Positions 30,186 to 35,012 of a stretch of DNA of 64,000 bases are shown one piece after another. Every line of letters starts with the position of its first letter. The first letter of the stretch is position 1. Source of the stretch: Synergistaceae bacterium (lineage in GTDB: Bacteria > Synergistota > Synergistia > Synergistales > Aminobacteriaceae). A program made the position numbers and the translations under genes. Location of the stretch: NCBI GenBank assembly GCA_017448795.1, contig JAFSKV010000023.1, positions 1 to 64,000 of the forward strand, in the 5' to 3' direction. Below the pieces are notes generated by a model, which ran no database searches, was not told the DNA's origin, and worked only from the letters and a program-made list of their open reading frames with translations.

Positions 30186-30683
30186 CTATTTTCCTCCGCT
30201 AAGATGACGCTCAATTACGGCGTTTGCTACACGCTCGGCGACTTTTTCCGATACAGTTTCAGCAACTCGTTCCATGTCCTCAAGCGTGGGTGTTAGCTTA
30301 AACAGTTTCCTCGTGTATTCTAGGATTGTAGGAAGCATAGTTGAGAGCGCGAGAATTATCCCGAATAAGCCGAGTCCCCAGTAAAGAACGTTCTCCATTG
30401 AGTCAACTCTTGCGGTCAGGACTCTCACGTCATTCTTCACTTCAACGATTTCCGCTTTGATTTCGGTTAATGCTTTCTCAACGTATGCTCTCGTGTCTGC
30501 TGTTGACTTCTCAACGTATGCTCTCGTGTCTGCTGTTGACTTCTCAACGTATGCTCTTGTCTCGCCTGTCGACTTGTCCACGTATGACTTGATTTCGAGT
30601 ACCGTCTTCTCAAGCAACATCTCCATCCTGTCCATACGCGCCTCGAATACATCCCGGCGAATGTACGCATCTTCATCGGCCAT
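30186..30683 (-). CDS. Coiled-coil membrane protein inserted between iorA and iorB
   Basis: 165 residues from ATG 30683, one base after the iorA stop; its Shine-Dalgarno sequence GGAGGTGAG lies in the last iorA codons. The N-terminal acidic region (MADEDAYIRRDVFEARMDRM) leads a long coiled coil with an 11-residue repeat (TRAYVEKSTAD, two perfect copies plus flanking variants). One membrane helix follows (about 109-129, VLYWGLGLFGIILALSTMLP), then a C-terminal amphipathic region (MERVAETVSEKVAERVANAV). This resembles DUF1640-like or other single-pass coiled-coil proteins. It is not a known subunit of the oxidoreductase. Tethering the enzyme to the membrane is one possibility, as inference. Confidence 0.8.
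   Translation of the reverse strand: MADEDAYIRRDVFEARMDRMEMLLEKTVLEIKSYVDKSTGETRAYVEKSTADTRAYVEKSTADTRAYVEKALTEIKAEIVEVKNDVRVLTARVDSMENVLYWGLGLFGIILALSTMLPTILEYTRKLFKLTPTLEDMERVAETVSEKVAERVANAVIERHLSGGK
30476..30574 (-). repeat. 33-bp in-frame tandem repeat
   Basis: Three units of 33 bases start at 30476, 30509 and 30542; the first two are identical and the third differs at its end (CTTGTCTCGCCTGTCGAC). A more diverged unit follows at 30575. Each encodes 11 residues (hendecad) of the coiled coil. Confidence 0.92.
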
Positions 30684-30684
30684 G

Positions 30685-32415
30685 TTACTCACCTCCAGTG
30701 AACGCCCCGAACTTGCACCGCTGCTCACACACCCCGCAGCCAACACACAGCGTAGCATCAACATGAGCCTTCCCGCCCTTCATCGACAGCGCAGGGCATC
30801 CTATCTTCATACATGACTTGCAGCCCACGCACTTTTTCCCGTCAACCTTAAGCGGAGGGTTGTGCTTCACGTACTTCAACAGCGCGCACGGTCTCCGGGA
30901 AATTATCACTGACGGCTCATCTGCGGCGAGTTCCTCACTCACTGCATCGGCGCATTCCTTGAGGTTGTAGGGGTCAACAACACGTACACGGTTGAAGCCC
31001 ATTGCCCGGCACAAGCTCTCAAGGTCAATTTTCCCGGCGGGGTCTCCCTTGATGTTGAGGCCTGTTGTTGGGTTCTGCTGATGTCCCGTCATTCCCGTTA
31101 TAGAGTTGTCGAGGATGATTACTACACCTTTGCTCTGGTTGTACGCGATATTAGCCAGCCCCGTCATACCCGAATGCATGAACGTTGAGTCCCCGATTAC
31201 AGCAACAACATTCTTGCCGCCTGCCTTGCTGAAACCGTGAAGCGCGCTCACAGATGCCCCCATGCATAGAGTCATCTCCATTGCCGACAAAGGAGCAACA
31301 GCCCCCAATGTGTAGCACCCAATATCACCCAGCACGGTGCATCCCGCCTGATTGAGCGTGAAGAACAAGCCCCTGTGAGGACAGCCCGCGCACATCATAG
31401 GAGGACGGCCGGGAATCTTCACACCGTCATCCAGCTTCAAGCCCGACGGAGCCGCAAGCCCGAATTTCTCAGCTATGATATTCTGACTCAGCTCACCGAG
31501 GCAGCCGAACAATGATTTTCCCTCGCACTCAATCCCCAACGCCCGGCAATGTTCCTCAATGAAGCCGTCAAGCTCCTCAACAATCACGAGCCTTCCTACA
31601 GTCCCGGCAAACTCACGAATCTTCCTGTCAGGCATCGGCCAAATCATCCCCAGCTTCAAGACCGGGTACTTGTCGCCTAATGCTTCCTTCACATATTGGT
31701 AGCAGGTTGATGATGTGATTATTCCGGCTGATGAGTCCGTTCCGTTTTCGACTCTGTTGATGTCTGAGACTTCCGCGAAATCCTGAAGCCTCCTCATTCT
31801 TTCCTCGACTACTGGATGACGCTTTATCGCATTTCCCGGCATCATAACGTACTTGGCTATGTTCTTTTCGTAAGGCCGGGCGGGAGCTTCTTTGCGTTCA
31901 CCGATTTCAACAAGAGACTGAGAATGAGCGACCCTAGTACACATTTTGACGATGACGGGGCAGTCGTATTCTTCCGACAGGTCATAGGCACGGCGGAAAT
32001 AGTCTAGTGCTTCCTGTGAGTCAGACGGCTCAAGCATGGGTAGCTTCGCGGCTCTGGCGTAATGCCGGGAGTCCTGTTCGTTCTGGGACGAGTGCATTCC
32101 CGCGTCATCCGCAACACATATCACCATCCCGGCATTCACTCCCGTGTATGAGACCGTGAACAGAGGATCCGCCGCAACGTTAAGACCTACATGCTTCATC
32201 CCGCAGAAAGATCTTTTGCCCGCAAGACTTGCCCCGAATGCCGCCTCCATTGCTACTTTCTCATTGGGTGCCCACTCGGAATATATTTCGTCATACTCGG
32301 CGATCTCCTCGGTGATTTCTGTGCTGGGAGTCCCCGGATAACTTGACGCAAAAGAACAGCCCGCCTCATAGAGTCCTCTTGCCGCGGCGGTGTTGCCCTG
32401 CATCAGCTGCTTCAT
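30685..32415 (-). CDS. iorA: Indolepyruvate:ferredoxin oxidoreductase alpha subunit
   Basis: 576 residues; GGGGG 10 bases before ATG. The pyrimidine-binding domain begins MQGNTAAARGLYEAGCSFAS with YPGTPSTEI. The thiamine diphosphate domain has GDSTFMHSGMTGLANIAYNQ and the metal motif DNSITGMTGHQ. The C-terminus has two ferredoxin-type clusters, CVGCKSCMKIGCPAL and CVGCGVCEQRCKFGAF. It catalyses the oxidative decarboxylation of aryl pyruvates. Length is slightly below the usual 590-610 but all domains are present. First gene of the leftward operon. Confidence 0.95.
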   Translation of the reverse strand: MKQLMQGNTAAARGLYEAGCSFASSYPGTPSTEITEEIAEYDEIYSEWAPNEKVAMEAAFGASLAGKRSFCGMKHVGLNVAADPLFTVSYTGVNAGMVICVADDAGMHSSQNEQDSRHYARAAKLPMLEPSDSQEALDYFRRAYDLSEEYDCPVIVKMCTRVAHSQSLVEIGERKEAPARPYEKNIAKYVMMPGNAIKRHPVVEERMRRLQDFAEVSDINRVENGTDSSAGIITSSTCYQYVKEALGDKYPVLKLGMIWPMPDRKIREFAGTVGRLVIVEELDGFIEEHCRALGIECEGKSLFGCLGELSQNIIAEKFGLAAPSGLKLDDGVKIPGRPPMMCAGCPHRGLFFTLNQAGCTVLGDIGCYTLGAVAPLSAMEMTLCMGASVSALHGFSKAGGKNVVAVIGDSTFMHSGMTGLANIAYNQSKGVVIILDNSITGMTGHQQNPTTGLNIKGDPAGKIDLESLCRAMGFNRVRVVDPYNLKECADAVSEELAADEPSVIISRRPCALLKYVKHNPPLKVDGKKCVGCKSCMKIGCPALSMKGGKAHVDATLCVGCGVCEQRCKFGAFTGGE

Positions 32416-32483: not shown

Positions 32484-32558
32484 ACGATTCATGAATGCGG
32501 GGCTTGTTACCAATGTTAAAATTTGTGGCAACGATAATATTTCCAGGAGAATAAATAT

Positions 32559-34931
32559 ATGGAAAGCAGGTTTGTGTTTCTTGAGGACGACTGCCCAAAG
32601 CTCGCGGAATATGGGCGCAAGGCTGAGGAATGCATGGCCGTAGATCCTAACTTGTGCCTTCTCTGTCTGGGAAGGATAGCCGAGTTCATCACGGAAGATT
32701 TATGCCGCCGCTGCAATATCACTGAAAGCAGTGAGAAACTTTCAGGCCTGACAGAAAAGGGGCTGCTCACAGATGACATTGCGCGGAAAATTTCAGCTCT
32801 CATAGAATGCAGGAATGAAGCGGCTGATTTCGGCTACGATTCTGAGATGGCATGTAAGCGGCTTATTGTTACGGCTGAAGAGTTATGCAGATGGTTCATC
32901 ACGGAAAAATTAGAGGGCAGGTTCAGTTTTCTTGCTGACATTTTCCCGCCTGATAAGCCCGTGCCTATACTCATGAATTTTTCGGAGCTTGGGCGCGAGG
33001 CTGAGGAGAATCTTTTCATCAACACACGCTACTGTCTCATATGCTTGGGGGATATGGGCGAGGCTGTTACTGACAGGCTGATTTCGGACGGCAGGATTGA
33101 GACACACGAGAAGGAGCAGATAGCCAGGATAGAGGTGTTATTCGAGAACAACATAATCACGCCGGAAGTCAAAAATATCCTTCACGCCCTGAGAATAGCC
33201 CGGAACAATGCTCTTCATGAACGCTACAAAGAAGAATACACGTCTGAACCGGAAGGCAGAAGGCTCATTGATGAAGCTCTTAGGCTGGGTGAATGGATTT
33301 TCCGTGAGACCATGAGGCCGGGCTATGCCGTGAAAGCGAGAATCACGGGCAAGAATGACGGGGGATATTCGGCCGTGATAGGGAGGATTCCCGCTGATGT
33401 TCCAGCTGATGAAGTCCCGGAAGGAAAAAGCTGTGTCGCCGGAAAAAAATATATCTTCAAGATTTCTGATGTTGAAGGCGGAAATGTAACACTCAGCCTG
33501 AAAGATGCTGACAATGACAGCGGGCTGACTATGGCGAGGCTTTACGCGAAATACAAGCCCGGCCAGGATGTCCGCGTAACAATAAAGAGCCTCAGCAATT
33601 CTACAGGGGCAATTGTAGAGCTGAAAGACGGACTCGAAGCAAGGATTCCTTCCTCAGAACTCGGACATAGGATTTACCGTTACGGCGAAGAAGGCAAGAT
33701 GGTGCGCTATGATGTTACGGCGCGGGTAAAATGGTTCAGCCTCACACAGTATCCTCCTATGCTGCTGTCGGTGAAGGATGTTGAGGAAGGTGAACGTGAA
33801 CACAAGCCAGCCCCTCAGCCAGTGAGAGAACCAAAACCGGCCATGAGTGATTTAGACTTCCGTCTGTTCTGCAAGTCAGCACCCTACGAGAAAATCATTC
33901 AGGCACTTGATGAGGGAGCTAATCCCAACGCCACGAACAGCAACAACACAACAGCCCTGATGATGGCGGCGCAATTCAGCAAGAGTGCTCGTGTAGTGAA
34001 GGCCTTGATTGATGCGGGGGCGGAGCTTGACACACAGAATCACAAGGGCAACACGGCGTTGATGTATGCGGCTATGAGCAACTGCCCTGAGATTGTGAGG
34101 GTGATATATGACGCGGGGGCTGATATTGAGCTTGTGAACAAAGGAGGAAAGAAGGCCGCTGATTTCGCAGTAGCAAACAAGAAACTTAACGGCACGGATT
34201 TAGTGAGGCTTCTGCGTGATGAGCCGGAAGAAATCCCGGTAGCAACGCCTGAACCAGAAGCAACACCAGAACCAGCAGCAGCACCAGAACCAGCAGCAAC
34301 GCCTGAGCCTGAAGCAGCACAAGAACCAGCAGCAACGCCTGAGCCAGTAGCAGCACAAGAACCAGCAGCAACACCTGAACCTGAAGCAGCACAAGAACCA
34401 GCAGCAACGCCTGAACCTGAAGCAGCACAAGAACCTGAACCAGAACATGAGCCTGAACAGGAAGTAGAATCCGACGCTCCCATGAGCTACTACGAGTACA
34501 GCCCCGACGAAAACGCCAGCAGTGAGGATGAGGCGGAAACACTCCTTGAGATACGGCGGACACTCCAGCGCAACTTCCTCAAGATATGCCGCTCAGGAAG
34601 CGAGGACGAAATCGCCGAGGCCGTCTCAGCAGGCGTGAACGTCAACGTAACAAACAAGACTTCAGCAACCGCCCTCATGTTCGCGGCAAAAAGCAACACA
34701 GCCGCGGCAGTCGAGATACTCATCCACGCGGGGGCAATCCTTGACGCTAAGGACGACAACGGCAACACAGCTCTGATTTACGCGGGGGCATATAACACAG
34801 ATGATGTTGTGGAGACTCTCATTGAGGCAGGTGCTGACACAGACATAAGGAACACGTCAGGGCATAAGGCGCGGGATTATGCTGCGAGAAATTACAGGCT
34901 CATTGATACGGAGGCTTTAAGCAGGCTGTAG
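32559..34931 (+). CDS. DUF4145-like / S1-like / ankyrin multidomain protein
   Basis: 790 residues; AGGAG 9 bases before ATG. Order of parts: two DUF4145-like helical modules (1-115 starting FVFLEDDCPKLAEYGRKAEE; 120-245 starting FSFLADIFPPDKPVPILMNF, with ARNNALHERY matching the GNxAaH-type motif). One or two OB/S1-like segments follow (about 250-420, with GQDVRVTIKSLSNSTGAIVE). Two ankyrin repeats lie at about 430-540 (ALMMAAQFSKSARVVKALID; NTALMYAAMSNCPEIV). A Pro/Glu/Ala spacer (about 560-640) is followed by further ankyrin repeats (about 670-790). No signal peptide, so cytoplasmic. DUF4145 modules occur in restriction and other defence proteins; S1 suggests RNA contact and ankyrins suggest protein binding. 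I know no described protein with this combination. Function is not assigned. Confidence 0.85.
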   Translation: MESRFVFLEDDCPKLAEYGRKAEECMAVDPNLCLLCLGRIAEFITEDLCRRCNITESSEKLSGLTEKGLLTDDIARKISALIECRNEAADFGYDSEMACKRLIVTAEELCRWFITEKLEGRFSFLADIFPPDKPVPILMNFSELGREAEENLFINTRYCLICLGDMGEAVTDRLISDGRIETHEKEQIARIEVLFENNIITPEVKNILHALRIARNNALHERYKEEYTSEPEGRRLIDEALRLGEWIFRETMRPGYAVKARITGKNDGGYSAVIGRIPADVPADEVPEGKSCVAGKKYIFKISDVEGGNVTLSLKDADNDSGLTMARLYAKYKPGQDVRVTIKSLSNSTGAIVELKDGLEARIPSSELGHRIYRYGEEGKMVRYDVTARVKWFSLTQYPPMLLSVKDVEEGEREHKPAPQPVREPKPAMSDLDFRLFCKSAPYEKIIQALDEGANPNATNSNNTTALMMAAQFSKSARVVKALIDAGAELDTQNHKGNTALMYAAMSNCPEIVRVIYDAGADIELVNKGGKKAADFAVANKKLNGTDLVRLLRDEPEEIPVATPEPEATPEPAAAPEPAATPEPEAAQEPAATPEPVAAQEPAATPEPEAAQEPAATPEPEAAQEPEPEHEPEQEVESDAPMSYYEYSPDENASSEDEAETLLEIRRTLQRNFLKICRSGSEDEIAEAVSAGVNVNVTNKTSATALMFAAKSNTAAAVEILIHAGAILDAKDDNGNTALIYAGAYNTDDVVETLIEAGADTDIRNTSGHKARDYAARNYRLIDTEALSRL
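34314..34440 (+). repeat. 36-bp in-frame tandem repeat in the ankyrin protein
   Basis: Units starting GCAGCACAAGAACC occur at 34314, 34350, 34386 and 34422, spaced exactly 36 bases, encoding AAQEPAATPEPE. The same Pro/Glu pattern in shorter 15-base form extends upstream to about 34249. It forms an extended acidic spacer between the two ankyrin blocks. Confidence 0.9.
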
Positions 34932-34963: not shown

Positions 34964-35012
34964 TCACGGAGTCTTGCTGACACACGGCAGGACTCAATTT
35001 TTACGCAAAGGA

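Follow-up and report, generated by a model that had tools for sequence, protein, structure and literature searches.

The gene described here codes for a 790-aa protein that carries, in order, a degenerate HEPN module, an intact HEPN module, a tandem pair of S1 domains and two ankyrin blocks; each of these domains is known, and their combination is new as a HEPN architecture. The gene lies in a 64,000-nucleotide window (the whole stretch of DNA analyzed) from a Synergistaceae bacterium; the genes of the window point to Synergistota. Its product is predicted to be a cytoplasmic, stand-alone HEPN protein that acts as a regulated endoribonuclease, a reading that we consider about equally likely to be right or wrong, with the catalysis, trigger and target all inferred.

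The open frame begins with ATG and shows no start or frame problem (Table 1). It is divergent from iorA, with a conserved upstream region of its own and an invariant AGGAG, in agreement with the sequence-only reading, which had placed it divergent from the ior operon with its own start region. We infer that the ATGTTAAAAT element is the gene's own promoter, and it is graded weak because a consensus promoter scan finds no plus-strand match upstream of the gene and does not call it. The gene is followed by a terminator-like stem, of a type whose number across the region is at chance level, and then by an acyl-CoA ligase gene. On the other side, a coiled-coil/membrane-like protein (30186-30764, minus strand) with no Pfam match is encoded between iorB and iorA; it carries YVEKSTADTRAY repeats and shares 43-59% identity between the window and relatives, compared with about 90% for the flanking ior genes.

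Table 1. Features of the HEPN-S1-ankyrin gene and its flanks (window coordinates unless a locus is named)
Feature	Position	Strand	Evidence
Gene, pseudo-HEPN / HEPN / S1 / S1 / ankyrin protein, 790 aa	32559..34931	+	ORF, Pfam, homologues in 36/43 genus genomes
Extended -10-like promoter element ATGTTAAAAT (putative)	32512..32521	+	conserved as AATGTTAnAAT among 8 relatives; weak
Shine-Dalgarno AGGAG, nine bases 5' of ATG	32545..32549	+	sequence; invariant in 8 aligned upstream regions
DUF4145/HEPN module 1 (aa 1-118), motif degenerate (RNEAAD)	32559..32912	+	Pfam, A3 profile, fold match to LsoA/RnlA HEPN, motif-column drift
DUF4145/HEPN module 2 (aa 120-252), motif intact	32916..33314	+	Pfam 147-228, fold match to HEPN structures
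E168, acidic residue in helix 2 of module 2	33060..33062	+	invariant 33/33; helix 156-179 in model
R215-N-N-A-L-H220, Rx4H predicted RNase motif (RNxAxH), module 2	33201..33218	+	R, N, A, H invariant 33/33
S1 domain a (aa 254-318)	33318..33512	+	profile match to bS1, tandem with S1 b
S1 domain b (aa 330-408)	33546..33782	+	Pfam, family profile; missing in several more divergent homologues
Ankyrin block 1 (aa 431-556)	33849..34226	+	Pfam; ankyrins in homologues
36-bp tandem repeat coding Pro/Glu/Ala spacer	34251..34457	+	Tandem Repeats Finder, period 36, 5.8 copies
Ankyrin block 2 (aa 670-790)	34566..34928	+	Pfam; ankyrins in homologues
Terminator-like stem (11 pairs) and T-rich tail 3' of gene	34969..34995	+	position apt; site number at chance level
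L073/L074 gene copies	L073 8490-10871; L074 8269-10083		

Searched as a single sequence against Pfam, the protein matches DUF4145 twice (E = 1.5e-12, over the cut-off) and ankyrins (E = 4e-30), with a weak S1 match at aa 332-383 (E = 0.0035, below the cut-off). The family alignment profile of aa 250-416 matches two adjacent bS1 domains with an E value of 2.5e-24 (best stretch, bS1 357-526), and 30 of the 33 genus members match Pfam S1 at E ≤ 0.1, the best at 4.1e-16. The order proposed from the letters alone, a 790-residue protein with two DUF4145 modules, S1-like segments and two ankyrin blocks, is right by Pfam and family profile; its S1 call, for which loss of S1 similarity had been named as the counter-evidence, is strengthened, and the Pro/Glu spacer with a 36-bp repeat is recovered by Tandem Repeats Finder.

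DUF4145 was placed by Anantharaman and colleagues in the HEPN superfamily, which consists mostly of RNases with an Rx4-6H motif as the predicted RNase site (PMC3710099). The motif is mostly conserved in DUF4145 and wholly absent in some HEPN families, which act as binding modules (PMC3710099); in the published literature found, nuclease activity of DUF4145 is a prediction only. The DUF4145 profile matches two stretches of the protein with 47.8 bits (cut-off, 23.1), which places it in the family, and all 33 members match at E ≤ 0.1, with cross-matches among them to the HepT-like, RiboL-PSP, Swt1 and HEPN Pfam models. Assignment of the N-terminal modules to a housekeeping family, which would have told against the sequence-only reading, was tested, and the profiles give HEPN (DUF4145) instead. 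R215, N216, A218 and H220 of module 2 are invariant in 33/33 aligned sequences that are 34-75% identical to the window protein, and the same four residues are retained by three partial or broken copies. Sixteen of the 133 module 2 columns are invariant, which by simple arithmetic gives a probability of about 0.0015 for R, N and H all being among them; E168 matches in position the secondary acidic residue described for HEPN. In module 1 the motif columns drift (RNEAAD in the window protein, K/D/N elsewhere), with mostly K at the first position and no His at the last, and they do not conform to Rx4-6H. At the level of profiles and motifs, the N-terminal modules are HEPN (DUF4145), with the motif clearly lost in module 1 and intact in module 2.

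Other DUF4145 proteins are encoded in the genus. A paralogue in a genome without the iorA-linked gene (L075:8033-10228, plus strand) has two HEPN-like modules and many ankyrins with no S1 seen, and follows the same pattern of a degenerate module 1 and a module 2 with RNNFAH. Three genus genomes code for short DUF4145 proteins (L128, L129 and L077; about 270-290 aa, RNKNAH) that have a hydrophobic segment at the C-terminus, and in another case a DUF4145 protein of 214 aa that retains a remnant of ankyrin sequence (L131, G003:C86 about 36688) is located directly downstream of the main gene and is likely a partial duplicate of it.

Structure prediction is consistent with these assignments. In a model of aa 1-254 (pLDDT 81.7), helix 202-219 ends at the R215-H220 motif, which is where active sites are located in HEPN proteins, although how the two modules sit relative to each other is uncertain (pTM 0.53). 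With VIA-align, module 2 aligns to 2hsb (Z 14.2, rmsd 3.0, 120 residues aligned), HepT (Z 11.7) and Csm6 (Z 9.9), and module 1 to the HEPN domains of LsoA and RnlA (Z 8.2 and 8.1); helix bundles may reach such Z values by chance, yet almost every top-ranking row is HEPN and the motif is correctly placed. Foldseek alone gives no match at E ≤ 0.001 and reports HepT at probability 0.95. The modeled fold is the four-to-five-helix HEPN fold. The larger region suggested for structure prediction at the outset, residues 1-420, was modeled as aa 1-419 with a pLDDT of 38 and is unreliable.

The S1 pair may have been captured from bS1, because the linker that separates the S1 domains is still of the bS1-like NPW/DPW type in several homologues; in comparison with bS1 (rpsA), aa 250-416 aligns to two adjacent domains including the linker, whereas only two S1 domains are present, their RNA-face residues are divergent, and the genus has separate bS1-like proteins. 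By eye, the aromatic and His residues usual on RNA-binding S1 faces seem to have been substituted (GAIV for GaFV, RIP for lvH), so that RNA binding by the pair is uncertain and may be weak.

Ankyrins terminate all homologues with a complete C-terminus, with variation in repeat number and spacer length. Ankyrins are expanded in the genus (64 Ank_2 matches in the window's own genome), and by themselves are therefore little guide to function; the suggestion that they point to host or phage interactions finds no support, with dozens of ankyrin matches per genome in the genus. The window's own genome also codes for an unusual FtsZ-like/ankyrin fusion of 961 aa (L120:2068-4953, plus strand), in which residues 128-199 match FtsZ_C, ankyrin blocks are present and the C-terminus weakly matches a zinc ribbon.

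The search with the N-terminal half covered 101 related genomes, and that with the family profile covered 188 from the phylum. Of the 43 genus genomes, 36 carry the N-terminal architecture, several of them as more divergent copies without S1 b; it is absent from the 145 other phylum genomes, which give only bS1 or HsdR-like partial matches. Most genus members share a fixed order of genes for an ACT protein, a PaaK-like ligase, iorB, (a coiled-coil protein) and iorA, then the divergent gene, followed downstream by genes for an acyl-CoA ligase, a metallo-beta-lactamase-fold protein, an Lgt-like protein and a DegP-like protease; at displaced loci the neighbors still look housekeeping or metabolic by eye. 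Among the seven genus genomes without a copy, three have iorA with no gene beside it, one is ambiguous at a contig edge and three have no full iorA. The gene is dispensable, because seven genomes lack a copy, three of them with iorA in place, and one further copy (G041) is interrupted by a stop. No defense genes or toxin partner are recognized near the gene in the relatives inspected, where in nearly all cases the neighbors are amino-acid fermentation and cell-envelope genes, and PADLOC gives no specific match, only generic ankyrin and HsdR-type DUF4145 models; thus neither a specific model nor defense-island neighbors mark the locus as a defense system. Phages and viral contigs contain no relative and plasmids only HsdR-like partial matches, on which grounds a phage or plasmid origin is rejected. 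The locus is vertically kept and genus-restricted, not an island passenger.

The protein is under purifying selection, since dN/dS is about 0.07-0.2 (0.07-0.18 in the N-terminal part and 0.10-0.20 in the ankyrin part). It is nonetheless far more divergent than its neighbors, with a median distance of 0.60 versus 0.17 for iorA, and 0.63 versus 0.10 for the ligase set; its distances track those of the neighbors (Mantel r = 0.56 for iorA and 0.74 for the ligase), yet are several times larger. In one species pair, L073 and L074, the gene is 63% identical (dS 1.34) between flanks that are 97-100% identical (dS 0.27-0.44). This suggests that one allele was possibly replaced by a distant one at the fixed locus, because the gene is far more divergent than its flanks at synonymous sites too. 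Such rapid change fits a conflict role, but loose constraint could also produce it.

The order of the domains, the conservation of the motif, the purifying selection and the fixed locus are established. In the proposed mechanism, module 2 is predicted to cut RNA in the metal-independent HEPN manner, module 1 would pair with it in a dimer-like way or offer a regulatory surface, the S1 pair would take the enzyme to mRNA or the ribosome, and the ankyrin blocks would bind a partner protein that either keeps the enzyme inactive or activates it; translation would probably be slowed or shut off under stress or infection. Of the sequence-only suggestion of an RNA-sensing defense factor, the RNA-directed role is supported because of the HEPN homology and the invariant RNxAxH motif, but the defense role is not, given the metabolic neighbors and the want of a specific defense model. 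A resident stress or abortive factor is more likely than a mobile defense gene, because inheritance of the gene is vertical within one genus and its locus is fixed.

A dedicated anti-phage role, in which the ankyrins or the S1 pair sense a phage product, the HEPN domain degrades RNA and the infected cell is stopped by abortive infection, is rather unlikely. Fusion to, or coupling with, defense systems is described for DUF4145 HEPN domains (PMC3710099) and the DUF4145 protein BxaP protects against T4 (PMC10799925), but the gene has no recognized defense genes around it in the relatives inspected, no specific PADLOC model, no counterpart in phages or viral contigs and only HsdR-like partial ones on plasmids. 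The low conservation relative to the neighbors fits a conflict protein and proves none; the very divergent allele between the nearly identical flanks of L073/L074 points the same way, and the fixed locus with distances that track its neighbors points away from it.

Less probable still is a non-catalytic RNA- or ribosome-binding scaffold, with HEPN structural, S1 binding RNA and the ankyrins recruiting partners. Such a scaffold would have no need to keep R, N and H without exception exactly where catalysis is predicted, as 33/33 divergent sequences do, even though the motif is lost in module 1, multi-ankyrin proteins are abundant in the genus, and some motif-less HEPN families act as binding modules (PMC3710099).

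Identity as a restriction enzyme is rejected, as no helicase or nuclease follows DUF4145 and the HsdR model matches in the DUF4145 part only. Ankyrin proteins can serve as effectors in bacteria, but an exported or injected effector with host-facing ankyrins is very improbable here: the strongest NCBIfam names are T4SS ankyrin effectors, matched far below their cut-offs (86 bits versus 600) and by ankyrins only, which rejects AnkY and other Dot/Icm ankyrin effectors, the protein is predicted to begin with a HEPN helix bundle rather than a signal peptide, and the neighbors of its gene are metabolic.

A regulated endoribonuclease of this kind can be set beside several known systems. RNase L carries ankyrins, a pseudokinase and a KEN/HEPN domain on one chain. 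The protein is like it in joining ankyrins to a HEPN-type RNase domain, with a similar sensor-effector logic, and unlike it in being bacterial, with the reverse order, an S1 pair and DUF4145 rather than KEN, the HEPN-type RNase domain that accompanies the ankyrins of RNase L (PMC3710099); a Pfam search finds no kinase-like or KEN profile in the protein, which is thus no RNase L, and the likeness is one of analogy, not whole-protein homology. By that analogy, a doubtful extension is a bacterial RNase L-like logic, in which an ankyrin-gated HEPN ribonuclease with a captured bS1 tandem S1 would, when triggered, cut mRNA on or near the 30S subunit and halt translation, as a resident stress or infection switch of one genus. 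With HsdR of type I restriction the protein shares the N-terminal DUF4145 domain (PF13643), and HsdR N-termini are the nearest outside relatives of module 1 (L039 and plasmid matches), but here two DUF4145 modules are in tandem, one degenerate, without a helicase or endonuclease and fused to S1 and ankyrins. BxaP, a BREX-associated protein of DUF4145 and HEAT-like repeats with a proposed abortive effect (PMC10799925), likewise joins DUF4145 to a helical-repeat region, but no S1 pair is reported for it and the BREX context is absent here. The sequence-only reading knew of no described protein with this order, and none was found in literature on HEPN with ankyrin and S1, or on HEPN with ribosomal protein S1; neither S1 nor ankyrin is among the partners in the published list of DUF4145 fusions (PMC3710099).

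DUF4145 is common in restriction enzymes, and its activity is unproven in the literature found. Carrying a decayed copy beside an intact one, an S1 pair as candidate targeting element and removable ankyrins, this protein would offer a clean system for DUF4145 RNA cutting, and would also suit asking how an antitoxin-less HEPN enzyme is kept in check.
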